This document shows, in pieces, positions 18,719-49,793 of a DNA stretch of 64,000 nucleotides. The stretch comes from an uncultured Flavobacteriales bacterium (GTDB taxonomy: Bacteria; Bacteroidota; Bacteroidia; CAIKAF01). The stretch lies in contig CAILUT010000031.1 in the NCBI GenBank assembly GCA_903837495.1, forward strand, positions 1 through 64,000. The letters are read 5' to 3'. The notes below the pieces were generated by a model. It searched no databases, had not been told where the DNA came from, and saw nothing but the letters and a program-made list of their open reading frames with translations. The number at the start of each line of letters is the position of its first letter. Within the stretch, counting starts at the first letter, position 1. Position numbers and translations under genes: made by a program.

Positions 18719-18860
18719 CCGCGGCAGGGATTGAGCCAGGTAGCCCGCAAGGGTGGCGGGGATTGCCCCGCGCGGCGCGGAGGCGACCTTGGGAGCCCCC
18801 GCAAGCCCGCTGGGGCAACCCCCGGCAACCGCGGCCTACCGGCGAAAGCCCGCAGCCGCC
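18719..18860. repeat. GC-rich hairpin element, copy 3
   Basis: Orientation B, in the gap between the end of gmk and the start of sucA (both minus strand). Left end CGCGGCAGGGATTGAGCC. The short helix is GGTAG (18739-18743) with CTACC (18836-18840). The long helix is TTGCCCC (18763-18769) with GGGGCAA (18812-18818), continued by GGGG (18758) with CCCC (18820). The core GGAGGCGACCTTGGGAGCC is at 18779-18797. The 327-bp gap contains no gene. Confidence 0.87.
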
Positions 18861-21560: not shown

Positions 21561-21815
21561 GGTTTATCATGTGGGATTGCAGAGGCAGCCCATGTGCTGT
21601 CTTTACATGGGCGGCAGGCGGGCTTTCCGGGCTACTCCGCGGTTGCCGAAAGGCTGGCCCAGCTGGTTTGCGGGGGCTCCTAACGTCGCCTCCGCACCTA
21701 GCGGGCCAGGCTTCGGCACCCTTGCGGGGTAGCCTCGTCAATCCCTGCCGCGACTCCTGTCCGTTTATCGAGTGGGATTGCAGAGGCAGCACATGTGCTG
21801 TCTTTACATGGGCGG
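21561..21815. repeat. 53-bp direct repeat flanking hairpin element 4
   Basis: Bases 21561-21614 and 21763-21815 are near-identical: GTTTATC, then GTGGGATTGCAGAGGCAGC, then CATGTGCTGTCTTTACATGG and GCGG. The left copy ends where the hairpin element begins; the right copy begins just after its right end. The right copy contains the palindrome CAGCACATGTGCTG. This looks like duplicated flanking sequence or a tandem copy of an element boundary. The 418-bp gap between kbl and the formyltransferase gene otherwise holds element 4. Confidence 0.85.
21610..21752. repeat. GC-rich hairpin element, copy 4
   Basis: Orientation A. Ends are GGCGGCAGGCGGGCTTTCC and TCAATCCCTGCCGCG. The short helix is GCTAC (21631-21635) with GTAGC (21729-21733). 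The long helix is TGCCGAA (21644-21650) with TTCGGCA (21712-21718) and CTGGCCC (21654-21660) with GGGCCAG (21703-21709). The core GGCTCCTAACGTCGCCTCC is at 21675-21693. It lies in a divergent gap. Confidence 0.88.
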
Positions 21816-22606: not shown

Positions 22607-24142
22607 TTAATAGGTAATGACAACCTGCCCGTTTCCACTTTGGAAACCGCCGGAGCTTGAGGTGTTGCTGCCGGAGTTGTAGGATCCGCCGCCGCCGCCT
22701 CCATAATAATAGGTTGATCCGCCGGCGCCGCCGCCTGAATAGCCTCCTCCGGCACCAGCGGCGTGCATGGGATTGCTGCAGCAGCTTGCACCACTGCCAC
22801 CGCCACCGCCATAGCCCCCATTTCCGCCATAGGCCGTTGCAAGTTTGCCTGCGGGGCTTTGAACAATGGAAATCCAACCTTTACCGCCGCCCGAGCCCCC
22901 GTATCCATCTTGTCCGCCCGTTCCTCCAGGAGCATTGCCAAAGGCATCGTGGCTTCGGCTACCGCTACCGGCGTTGGTGGTAACACCATCTTTGCCATAG
23001 TAATGCGGAACCCCGTCGTTTGTGAGGGAAGAACCACCTCCCCCTCCAGCAGCAATAAGGGGCTGGTTGGTTTGACCTTGAACCCAAACAAAGCTGCCAC
23101 CTCCTCCGCCACCACCTCCATTGGCCGAGTTGCCGCTTGTTGCATTAATGCCCTTTTGCCCAACAATGATTTGAAGAACCGTGCCTCCCGAAACGTTGAA
23201 GGTGCCTACCATGCGCGCGCCTTTCCCTCCCAATTGCTGTGGGATTAAATCAATGTTGTCGCCCCCTTGTGCCCCGCGGCAATCAATGCTAACCGACGAA
23301 ACACAAGCGGGAACCGTAAAGCTTTGAATGGCGCCCGTATAATTAAAGGTTTGAGAGCCGCTCGGACAGTTGATCACATTCACCGTGGTGCTGCTGGAGT
23401 CTTTGCATTGGGGATTCAGGGTTACCCGATGAAAAACCGTGGCATTTCCGGTTTGGCTCCAGGTTACAGTTGGGTTGTAGGCAGTGGATGTTCCGGGAGT
23501 TCCGTTCTGAAAACTCCATGCATAGGCCGAAGCGTTGGCGGTATTTGAGGTAAATTGAATGTTCGTACCCACCGAAGGAGTGGCTGGGCTGTTGGAGTAG
23601 CCGGCATTTGGTGAGCGTACTACAACAGGCAGCGAAGTGGTCAAAGAACTCCCACAGGGGTTGGAGGCCAGCACCGAAATGCTGCCTCCAGTGGCACCGG
23701 CGGTTACCACAAGGGTATCGTTTCCTTGTCCGCTCACGATGCTCCAGCCGCTGGGCACCTGCCAGGTGTAGGTTGTGGCTCCGCTGCTGGGTGCCGCTAC
23801 ATAGCTAATGTTGGCCTGGGAAGGGCACACATCGGCATGGCCCGAAATGGATGCCGGGCTGGGAGGTGCTGTAGTGCAATTGCAGGCAATGGCTTGCCAG
23901 CCGTTGGCGGCATAGTGAATTTCAAGGCAAGAGGAGCTGGTGTTGAGAATCAAAAGGCCCTCGGCCGGATTTTGGATGGCGTTTCGCTGGGTGGTGCTCA
24001 TGCGCGGAATCAAGAGGCCTCCGGCGGTTCCTGCAATGTCAAACAACGCCGAGGCATCGGGCTGTTGGGTGTTGATGCCAACTTGTTGGGCAAGCAGGGA
24101 ACAGGAAAGGAACAAAAAGAGCAGCGTTGGGCGCAGGTTCAT
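22607..24142 (-). CDS. secreted protein with PKD-like domains and C-terminal glycine-rich domain (paralogue 2)
   Basis: This 511-residue protein has a signal peptide ending near SLLAQ, then the motif VGINTQQPDASALFDIAGTA...GLLIPRMSTTQRNAI common on Bacteroidota surface proteins. A PKD-like/Ig domain (~95-166) and a second PKD-like domain (~172-255) follow. The last ~230 residues are Gly-rich (GAQGG, VGQKG, AAGGGGGSS, YGGGGGGSY), ending GNGQVVITY, resembling the glycine-rich domain next to the kinase receptor ALK (PF12810). Residues 1-166 are identical to the upstream paralogue; the C-terminal domains differ. No T9SS sorting domain is visible. Function unknown, probably cell-surface. Confidence 0.85.
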   Translation of the reverse strand: MNLRPTLLFLFLSCSLLAQQVGINTQQPDASALFDIAGTAGGLLIPRMSTTQRNAIQNPAEGLLILNTSSSCLEIHYAANGWQAIACNCTTAPPSPASISGHADVCPSQANISYVAAPSSGATTYTWQVPSGWSIVSGQGNDTLVVTAGATGGSISVLASNPCGSSLTTSLPVVVRSPNAGYSNSPATPSVGTNIQFTSNTANASAYAWSFQNGTPGTSTAYNPTVTWSQTGNATVFHRVTLNPQCKDSSSTTVNVINCPSGSQTFNYTGAIQSFTVPACVSSVSIDCRGAQGGDNIDLIPQQLGGKGARMVGTFNVSGGTVLQIIVGQKGINATSGNSANGGGGGGGGSFVWVQGQTNQPLIAAGGGGGSSLTNDGVPHYYGKDGVTTNAGSGSRSHDAFGNAPGGTGGQDGYGGSGGGKGWISIVQSPAGKLATAYGGNGGYGGGGGSGASCCSNPMHAAGAGGGYSGGGAGGSTYYYGGGGGGSYNSGSNTSSSGGFQSGNGQVVITY

Positions 24143-24233
24143 GGGGATGGATTTGAGGACTAAGGTAAGGAGTTCAAACTATAGTCTCAAGCCAGGGTGA
24201 ATAAAATATCGCAAAATGCAACCGGCCGAAAAA

Positions 24234-25775
24234 TCACCAACTGACAACAACGCTACCGTTGCCGGTAATGCCTCCAGAACTTGTTGAACCATTGGAAACT
24301 CCACCAATATAAGCAGAGCCCCCGCCCCCGCCCCCGCCGTGATAAGAACCGCCCCCGCCCCCATAATATCCACCTCCACCGCCAGAGGCGAGGGTGTTGT
24401 TTCCGGTGGAGGCGTTTCCTCCAAATCCGAGGGACCCTGCACTTCCTGCGGCACCGCCAGAAAGGTCGCTACCCCCGGCACCGCCCGAGTTTTGTGTTCC
24501 GCCCTTTCCGTGCCTGTCTCCACCATACCCACCCCCTCCTACATCATATCCATTGGCGCCGGTACTGCCCCCACCATTTCCGCCCCCACCATTTCCCCAG
24601 CTGCCAGAGCCCCCGCCCCCGCCTCCACCTCCAGCTACGATAACGCGATTGGCCAAAGCGGTACCCCCCGAGCGAACATCGCTGGCTCCGCCTCCGCCAG
24701 CACAAGTCCAGCCGGTATTTCCATAATTGTATCCGTTTCCTCCACCATTCCAACCGCCTTGCATAGGCGAGCTGCTTGATCGTTGCCCTTGGCCACCCAC
24801 ATACACATACAAGGTTTGTCCTGGGCTTACGGAAAGGGTTCCGGAGGCGATACCCCCTTGACCTTTAGGTTGGCTGCCGAGCGTGTGTCCATCTCCGCCG
24901 GCGGCTCCATTGCAGGTTATGTTGACCGAATTTACACAAGCGGGAACGGTAAAGGTTTGTACGGCGCCCGTATAATTAAAGGTTTGAGAGCCGCTGGGGC
25001 AGTTGATCACATTCACTGTGGTGCTGCTGGAGTCTTCGCATTGGGGATTCAGGGTTACCCGATGAAAAACCGTGGCATTTCCGGTTTGGCTCCAGGTTAC
25101 AGTTGGGTTGTAGGCAGTAGATGTTCCGGGAGTTCCGTTCTGAAAACTCCAAGCATAGGCCGAAGCGTTGGCGGTATTTGAGGTGAATTGAATGTTGGAA
25201 CTGACCGAAACGGTGGCTGGAGAATTCGTGTAACCGGCATTCGGCGAACGAACAACAACCGACACAGACGTGGGAGCAGAACTCCCACAGGGGTTGGAGG
25301 CCAGCACCGAAATGCTGCCGCCGGTGGCTCCGGCGGTTACCACCAGGGTGTCGTTTCCTTGTCCGCTCACGATGCTCCAGCCGCTGGGCACCTGCCAGGT
25401 GTAGGTTGTGGCTCCGCTGCTGGGTGCCGCTACATAACTGATGTTGGCTTGCGAAGGGCACACATCGGCATGGCCCGAAATGGATGCCGGGCTGGGAGGC
25501 GCTGTAGTGCAATTGCAGGCAATGGCTTGCCAGCCGTTGGCGGCATAGTGAATTTCAAGGCAAGAGGAGCTGGTGTTGAGAATCAAAAGGCCCTCGGCCG
25601 GATTTTGGATGGCATTTCGCTGGGTGGTGCTCATGCGCGGAATCAACAAGCCTCCGGCGGTTCCTGCAATGTCAAACAACGCCGAGGCATCGGGCTGTTG
25701 GGTATTGATACCAACTTGTTGGGCAAGCAGGGAACAGGAAAGGAACAAAAAGAGCAAGGTAGGGCGCAGGTTCAT
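24234..25775 (-). CDS. secreted protein with PKD-like domains and C-terminal glycine-rich domain (paralogue 1)
   Basis: This 513-residue protein has the same plan as its neighbour: signal peptide, VGIN...ALFDIAG segment, two PKD-like domains, then a Gly-rich domain. Here that domain shows the ALK-type pattern more fully: LYVYVGGQGQ, GGWNGGGNGYNYG, GGGGASDVRSGG, NRVIVAGGGGGGGG, and the end GNGSVVVSW. The first 166 residues are identical to the other copy, and the first ~30 bp upstream of the ATG are also nearly the same (TACCTTAG promoter-like element in both). The two are a recent tandem duplication with later divergence of the last domain. Confidence 0.85.
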   Translation of the reverse strand: MNLRPTLLFLFLSCSLLAQQVGINTQQPDASALFDIAGTAGGLLIPRMSTTQRNAIQNPAEGLLILNTSSSCLEIHYAANGWQAIACNCTTAPPSPASISGHADVCPSQANISYVAAPSSGATTYTWQVPSGWSIVSGQGNDTLVVTAGATGGSISVLASNPCGSSAPTSVSVVVRSPNAGYTNSPATVSVSSNIQFTSNTANASAYAWSFQNGTPGTSTAYNPTVTWSQTGNATVFHRVTLNPQCEDSSSTTVNVINCPSGSQTFNYTGAVQTFTVPACVNSVNITCNGAAGGDGHTLGSQPKGQGGIASGTLSVSPGQTLYVYVGGQGQRSSSSPMQGGWNGGGNGYNYGNTGWTCAGGGGASDVRSGGTALANRVIVAGGGGGGGGSGSWGNGGGGNGGGSTGANGYDVGGGGYGGDRHGKGGTQNSGGAGGSDLSGGAAGSAGSLGFGGNASTGNNTLASGGGGGYYGGGGGSYHGGGGGGGSAYIGGVSNGSTSSGGITGNGSVVVSW

Positions 25776-25813
25776 GGGGATGGATTTGAGGACTAAGGTA
25801 CAAGGAAATTTGT

Positions 25814-37456: not shown

Positions 37457-37613
37457 GGGGCGGTAATCGGGCTTTCACCGGTTGTCCGCGGCTGTAGGTG
37501 GCGGGGCCAGCGGGCTTGCGGTGGCTCCTAAAGTCGCCTCCGCGCCACGCGGCCCCGGCACCCACAGCCTTGCGGGCAACCCGGTTCAATCCCGCCGCCG
37601 GCCGCTCCTGTCC
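37457..37613. repeat. GC-rich hairpin element, copy 6
   Basis: Orientation A, in the 308-bp gap between two plus-strand genes. The short helix is GGTTG (37480-37484) with CAACC (37577-37581). The long helix is GGCTGT (37490-37495) with ACAGCC (37564-37569) and CGGGGCC (37502-37508) with GGCCCCG (37551-37557). The core GGCTCCTAAAGTCGCCTCC is at 37523-37541. The right end is followed by CTCCTGTCC (37605-37613), a word also found right after copy 4 (21754). Confidence 0.87.
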
Positions 37614-49077: not shown

Positions 49078-49793
49078 AAATCGCGTACAACCCGCACCCG
49101 AACGCTGTTGTTGCTGCGTGAAATGGTGGTTTGGGTTGCGTTTGAGAAATTGACCGTCCAGCCGGGAATAGGAAGGCTGTTGTCGTTGCAGCTGCTGCTC
49201 CAATAGGCGGCTGCAGCAAAGTTCCCCAAACCGGCCAAATGCAGATTCTGGTACATCAAATTGAGTTCGTATCGGCTGGGCATGCGCCAATCGGTATAAA
49301 CTTTGCCGGCATTGTCGTGGTTGTTGGGGTTGGAATAGGCGTCGTCGGCTAGGCCGTAATTGATGCCGGCGGATTGGTCTTGAAGTGCAGCCACCAGGCC
49401 ATGATCGCCGGCGGTATTGACGTAAAATACAATGCCCCCGCCCCACAATTCCCCTACAAAATGAACTCCGCCGCCGCCGCCGCCACCGCCGCCGGGATTG
49501 CCCCCGGTTCCGGTGTCTGACAAGCAAATCCAGGTAGGCAATTGAGGCGTGCCCTCGTTGATTTCAAGGCAATGGGTGTCGGTGTTGTACAAGACCAAGC
49601 CTTCGGCTGGAAGTACAATTCCATTGCGCTGGACCGTGCTGAGTCGGGGAGGAAGGAAACCTTGAGAGGGACTTGCGACTTCAAGGGCCGCCGAAGGGTC
49701 TGGATTGGCGGTTTGAATGCCCACGGATTGGGAAAACAGGTTTTGAAGCAACAAGAGCCCCATGCCGATTAAAACACATTTCAAGGTTTGCAT
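49074..49793 (-). CDS. secreted protein with VGIQ-type start and DUF1566/Lcl C-terminal domain
   Basis: This 239-residue protein has a signal peptide (MQTLKCVLIGMGLLLLQNLFSQ), then SVGIQTANPDPSAALEVASP and GFLPPRLSTVQRNGI, the same surface-protein start seen in the two glycine-rich proteins. A short run of nine Gly follows, then GELWGGGIVFYV...DWRMPSRYELNLMYQNLH...AYWSSS...VRVRVVRDF, the pattern of the DUF1566 (Lcl C-terminal, PF07603) domain known from adhesin-like proteins. It is likely exposed on the cell surface. ATG 49793 is preferred to 49820 because it starts the signal peptide. Confidence 0.85.
   Translation of the reverse strand: MQTLKCVLIGMGLLLLQNLFSQSVGIQTANPDPSAALEVASPSQGFLPPRLSTVQRNGIVLPAEGLVLYNTDTHCLEINEGTPQLPTWICLSDTGTGGNPGGGGGGGGGVHFVGELWGGGIVFYVNTAGDHGLVAALQDQSAGINYGLADDAYSNPNNHDNAGKVYTDWRMPSRYELNLMYQNLHLAGLGNFAAAAYWSSSCNDNSLPIPGWTVNFSNATQTTISRSNNSVRVRVVRDF

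Follow-up and report, generated by a model that had tools for sequence, protein, structure and literature searches.

How do two neighbouring genes come to encode proteins that begin identically and end differently? The question is raised by genes A and B, which lie in a window of 64,000 nucleotides (nt; the whole stretch of DNA analysed) on contig C31 of the 2.5-Mb genome of an uncultured Flavobacteriales bacterium (G000). The named relatives closest to it in the public collection are metagenome-assembled genomes (MAGs) of freshwater Flavobacteriales and Bacteroidetes. The two open reading frames (ORFs) are arranged head to tail on the minus strand, 91 nt apart and with no gene between them: B (513 amino acids, aa) at positions 24234-25775 and A (511 aa) at positions 22607-24142. 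In each protein a signal peptide and an N-terminal segment precede two PKD domains, and a glycine-rich domain forms the C-terminal end (hereafter, the tip); the front half of A is B-like, and its tip is different. The first-pass annotation of this DNA offered two explanations, a cassette system, with a fixed anchor in front of a varying exposed domain, and recent gene conversion in the 5' half. Judging from sequence comparison between species, the second is very probably correct in a recurrent form: the 5' halves of A and B would have been converted repeatedly, and the two tips would descend as separate, conserved lines of orthologs.

Within this genome, residues 1-166 of the two proteins are identical, as first reported, and the first 498 nt of the genes differ at 18 positions, all of them synonymous. 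The similarity is patchy beyond this point. At codons 167-193 (25197-25277 in B and 23564-23644 in A, both on the minus strand), 28 of 81 nt differ, forming an unconverted, diverged island between near-identical blocks, after which the second PKD domain is again nearly the same in both genes (7 differences in about 230 nt). Alignable DNA similarity is then lost near codon 270, and the tips are about 42% identical. The similarity is thus not smooth along the gene, a point that the annotation had overlooked. The 25 nt directly upstream of each ATG (25776-25800 for B and 24143-24167 for A, minus strand) are also identical and include TACCTTAG, which may be a Bacteroidota-type -7 element. Farther upstream the sequences are unrelated, and the suggested duplication of the promoter region therefore holds for these 25 nt and not for the region as a whole.

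The genome was compared with five congeners (G001-G005), all of them MAGs with one genome per species, so that every comparison is between species. For A and B the comparison comprises three species, namely the own genome, G001 and G005. Both genes are whole on one contig in G005, whereas in G001 the pair is spread over two contigs and codons 106-217 of B are missing, which makes its N-half values partial. The tandem pair has the same order and place in all three, beside murF/queA or, where the contig ends, beside the downstream gene. Order, position and both C-terminal domains are common to the three species, and the pair therefore predates their divergence. Upstream of B of G001, A of G001 and A of G005 there is likewise TACCTTAG or a close variant of it.

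The front and back halves of these genes group in different ways. In G005 the front halves of A and B are near-identical from codon 21 on, and compared with those of the own genome they are 61-93% identical (aa), depending on the segment; G001 shows a like pattern. The back halves match between species, at 93-95% (aa) for B with B and 94-97% for A with A. Informative sites that group paralogs number 33, 113, and 75 in the three comparisons, against 279, 230, and 232 that group orthologs, and the former lie nearly all before codon 261-270, where opposing sites are almost nil. A single cut at codon 263, 270, or 261 fits 311/312, 332/343, and 297/307 sites, respectively (96.7-99.7%), and none of 2000 label permutations fitted as well. 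The shared tree makes the sites interdependent, but a tree does not produce such a spatial separation of the two classes of sites. The breakpoint accordingly lies at codon 261-270, and within-species grouping of paralogs marks codons 1-258 as homogenized in both genes (25002-25775 in B, 23369-24142 in A, minus strand).

Synonymous divergence (dS) leads to the same result. In the N-half it amounts to 0.07-0.22 between paralogs (0.22 in the own genome, 0.07 in the partial comparison of G001, and 0.17 in G005) and to 0.41-1.24 between species. Purifying selection alone, holding the N-halves identical for the sake of shared export or partner contacts, would suit the conserved N-half protein, for which the ratio of nonsynonymous to synonymous divergence (dN/dS) is about 0.09-0.10, but it is refuted by synonymous sites that are alike within species and not between species in the very same region; we give it a negligible probability. 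Paralogs are closer than orthologs in the converted part, synonymous sites included, and the tracts have sharp boundaries. The 5' halves of A and B have therefore evolved in concert in each of the three species.

The boundaries of the tracts also bear on the number of events. In the own genome the tract extends 25 nt upstream of the start codon and keeps the island at codons 167-193, whereas in G005 the island region is homogenized and the signal peptide is not (A and B 68% identical in aa; proportion of differing synonymous sites, pS, 0.71). The breakpoints on the 5' side thus vary by lineage, which supports recurrent conversion over one event. Within-species similarity of the front halves would likewise be expected if the second gene had been remade independently in each species by a recent duplication of the 5' half or of the whole gene, with no continuing exchange. 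However, the order, position and C-terminal domains of both genes are common to the three species, it is far less probable that the pair was re-created three times independently with one and the same junction near codon 261-270, and the patchy island of the own genome requires more than one event, so that we consider this origin highly improbable.

Trees of 45 family members, built separately for the N-half and the C-half, agree with recurrent conversion. The N-half tree places A and B in one clade (100/100), whereas in the C-half tree they form two clades, A with G002_L082_1171/G004_L083_1174 and B with G002_L012/G004_L013. These relatives of the A and B tips in G002 and G004 carry different front halves with a single PKD domain. 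From the trees and the different front halves of the relatives it follows that two old tip lineages had joined one front half by the time of the ancestor of the three species.

The tips themselves are conserved. The tip of B (24237-24989, minus strand) is 93% identical in aa to B of G005 and G001, that of A (22610-23356, minus strand) 94-97% identical to A of the same genomes, and each has its own clade in the C-half tree. Between orthologs dN/dS is 0.018-0.074 for the C-half and 0.088-0.097 for the N-half; the tip is the more constrained part of the protein, the opposite of what a cassette for antigenic variation predicts. A cassette system would swap alternative exposed C-terminal domains behind a fixed N-terminal anchor and leave variants at this locus. 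The combination of identical N-halves and different C-halves would fit it, as would a second locus of the family (described below), where the own genome and G001 have different C-terminal domains behind an N-half that is 96% identical. At the A/B locus, however, the same two C-terminal domains are kept across species (93-97% identical, dN/dS 0.02-0.07), and different C-terminal domains behind the same N-half were not found there in the three species. Silent copies were not found in the own genome, where a DNA search with the whole pair gave a best other match of 76% over 92 nt, nor was a recombinase seen among the adjacent genes. The pair is flanked by a formyltransferase-like ORF and murF/queA, and the neighboring ORFs, as named from their translations, are housekeeping enzymes. 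We therefore reject a cassette at the A/B locus and regard it as very improbable. The proposal survives in a weak form at the second locus, between sister species.

Recurrent conversion has points against it. It was inferred by comparing species-level MAGs rather than seen in strains; B of G001 is broken across contigs (with codons 106-217 missing), and the contig of G003 stops inside A, with the A tip at the contig end and no close B tip seen among the matches listed. The surface location of A and B and binding by them are putative. Finally, tandem neighbors of the same family in G002 and G004 are not homogenized, which shows that proximity alone is insufficient. The contig breaks of G001 and G003 within this region, like the use of MAGs as such, would also suit an assembly artefact, with strain mixture or repeat collapse behind the likeness of the front halves. 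Yet the two copies in the own genome differ at 18 synonymous sites and in the 81-nt island, the variants shared by the two genes differ from species to species, and the pattern is alike in G005, where both genes are whole on one contig; an artefact is extremely improbable.

The arrays of G002 and G004 (three and four members) set a limit to the conversion. Their neighbors are mostly 50-77% identical in the front half, and their orthologs mostly 75-97%, so that they evolve as orthologs, which rules out a general homogenization of all tandem members of the family. Conversion affects some pairs, probably those already similar enough to recombine. In the own genome, two further regions with family members (C63 and C28) yielded no ORFs that passed the N-terminal motif filter.

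The second locus (L107:4318-5889, L108:5122-6615, L109:5078-7256, and L113:2-1036) repeats the pattern of A and B and shows what may become of such a pair. In G005, where contigs C13 and C20 share an overlap of 140 identical nt at this locus, it is a tandem of [X+Q] and [X+P], with front halves 92-98% identical and tips 56% identical (both nt). At this site the own genome has X+P only and G001 has X+Q only, with N-halves 96% and tips 53% identical (aa); among close matches, P was not found in G001, and Q was not found in the own genome. These single-gene states are best explained as differential loss from a tandem pair. A crossover within the shared N-half yields X+P directly, whereas X+Q alone needs another deletion.

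The architecture of the proteins is consistent with a stalk that carries a tip. PKD_6 is matched at residues 93-173 (E = 7.6e-23 in B and 1.8e-23 in A), and a second PKD domain follows at about 183-254. The N-half, described at first as a fixed anchor, consists of the signal peptide and PKD domains, and no recognized anchor or sorting domain was found in it among Pfam and NCBIfam matches. The same matches contain no sorting model of the type IX secretion system (T9SS), whose cargo carries a C-terminal sorting domain; the C-terminus of either protein is the final strand of the glycine-rich domain. The tip of B matches the Pfam family ALK_LTK_GRD (PF12810; E = 2e-19, 71 bits against a gathering cut-off of 24.5), whereas for A itself the Pfam search found no match to PF12810. 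The profile of the A alignment matches ALK/LTK chains (E 2e-12), and the B profile agrees with ALK/LTK. AlphaFold models (mean predicted local distance difference test, pLDDT, 80.9 for B and 72.2 for A) align with the ALK/LTK ectodomain with Z 17.4 and 3.3 Å over 193 residues for B, and with Z 15.0 and 3.8 Å over 200 residues for A, the A model being poor, with low confidence, at residues 393-478. The prediction for both tips is thus the fold of the glycine-rich domain of ALK/LTK receptors, here on PKD stalks. Among the weaker matches are tail proteins of phages (Z about 10) and, on the side of the stalk, PKD domains of collagenases and the grappling hook protein GhpA of Aureispira.

Surface binding by the tips is suggested by this architecture; the shared fold alone shows no function. 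Polymorphic toxins of the Rhs or contact-dependent inhibition (CDI) type were ruled out by the ALK/LTK-like fold of the tips and by the 91-nt gap, which holds no immunity gene. A viral origin was likewise rejected, as the patterns used detected no relative among viral contigs; phage proteins also carry the glycine-rich domain, which only shows that the domain is widespread. Bacterial domains with the predicted fold of the animal ALK/LTK ectodomain and detectable sequence similarity to it are numerous in this genus, each genome having dozens of family members, and a literature search on the Pfam name ALK_LTK_GRD found nothing.

Related sequences are also present elsewhere in the genome. A 249-aa ORF in the window contains, at 49551-49757 (minus strand), an N-terminal segment as in A and B (49% identical over 69 residues), and large ORFs of up to 2273 aa with repeated PKD and glycine-rich units are found on contigs C56, C62, C36, and C31 (146495-149635). 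A separate feature of the window is an intergenic repeat of 80 nt (21643-21722, plus strand) that is GC-rich, dispersed and palindromic at its ends, resembling repetitive extragenic palindromes (REP) or miniature inverted-repeat transposable elements (MITE). It has partial matches at 18774-18802 (minus strand) and 37518-37546 (plus strand), and is flanked by a 53-nt direct repeat, 94% identical (21562-21614 and 21763-21815; starts 201 nt apart). Four of the congeneric genomes each carry 40 or more scored copies (121-166 candidates at first look), and G002 and G004 carry none; in G000 and G001 the best-matching copies share about 94-100% identity with the query, and in G003 and G005 mostly 85-92%.

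As we picture it, A and B would be secreted proteins with a stalk and a tip, encoded by an old tandem pair of genes. Each would consist of a signal peptide, a conserved N-terminal segment, two PKD domains and a glycine-rich tip that folds as the ALK/LTK ectodomain does. The adjacent 5' halves, being near-identical, would recombine, presumably by homologous recombination of the RecA type, and one would repeatedly be copied over the other, and the signal peptide and stalk would thereby evolve jointly within each species. The tips, about 40% identical, would be too unlike to pair; each would be conserved on its own line of descent and would probably bind a target of its own.

Several known systems resemble this pair in part. 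The outer-membrane protein genes homA/homB and babA/babB of Helicobacter pylori, of which segment 3 clusters by strain, are likewise paralogous surface genes with one end homogenized and the other diverging (PMC2795765); there, however, the 3' end is homogenized and the middle is polymorphic between strains, whereas in A and B it is the 5' end, and the tips are strongly conserved. In mtrA-1/mtrA-2 of methanogens, one domain is homogenized by recurrent conversion and the other, of different origin, stays distinct across species (PMC4632066), but this is an archaeal metabolic complex evolving over very long times, and A and B are secreted proteins at a shallower phylogenetic depth. Long-lasting concerted evolution of whole prokaryotic genes (PMC6053082) similarly makes paralogs closer than orthologs, synonymous sites included; in A and B the homogenization stops at a domain boundary. 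The glycine-rich (TG) ectodomain of ALK/LTK (PF12810; PDB 7nx3, 7n00, 9g5i) is the predicted fold of both tips, but A and B are bacterial and secreted, with a PKD stalk and without a kinase, and a role for ALKAL-type ligands is not implied by the fold. GhpA (PDB 9flp and others; profile E 1e-34, fold Z about 9) has 5898 residues and matches A and B only in its PKD-like stalk domains, which are common, and a GhpA-like function was rejected for this reason.

Gene conversion is a known process, and A and B are a new, clear instance of it in a little-studied freshwater bacterium. In this three-species example conversion ends at a domain boundary, and the stalk and tip of one protein consequently differ in genealogy, so that whole-gene trees mislead for families of this kind. 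An identical front with a different end need not signal antigenic variation. The predicted folds point to a large bacterial family bearing the ALK/LTK ectodomain fold. More speculatively, and we think this rather unlikely, the homogenized 5' halves of tandem genes may serve as recombination handles in this genus, where pairs with ALK-like tips would collapse by crossover in the shared half and leave species with different tips on a common stalk. If true, this would slowly generate, between species, a repertoire of an extracellular recognition domain akin to the one in animal ALK/LTK receptors.
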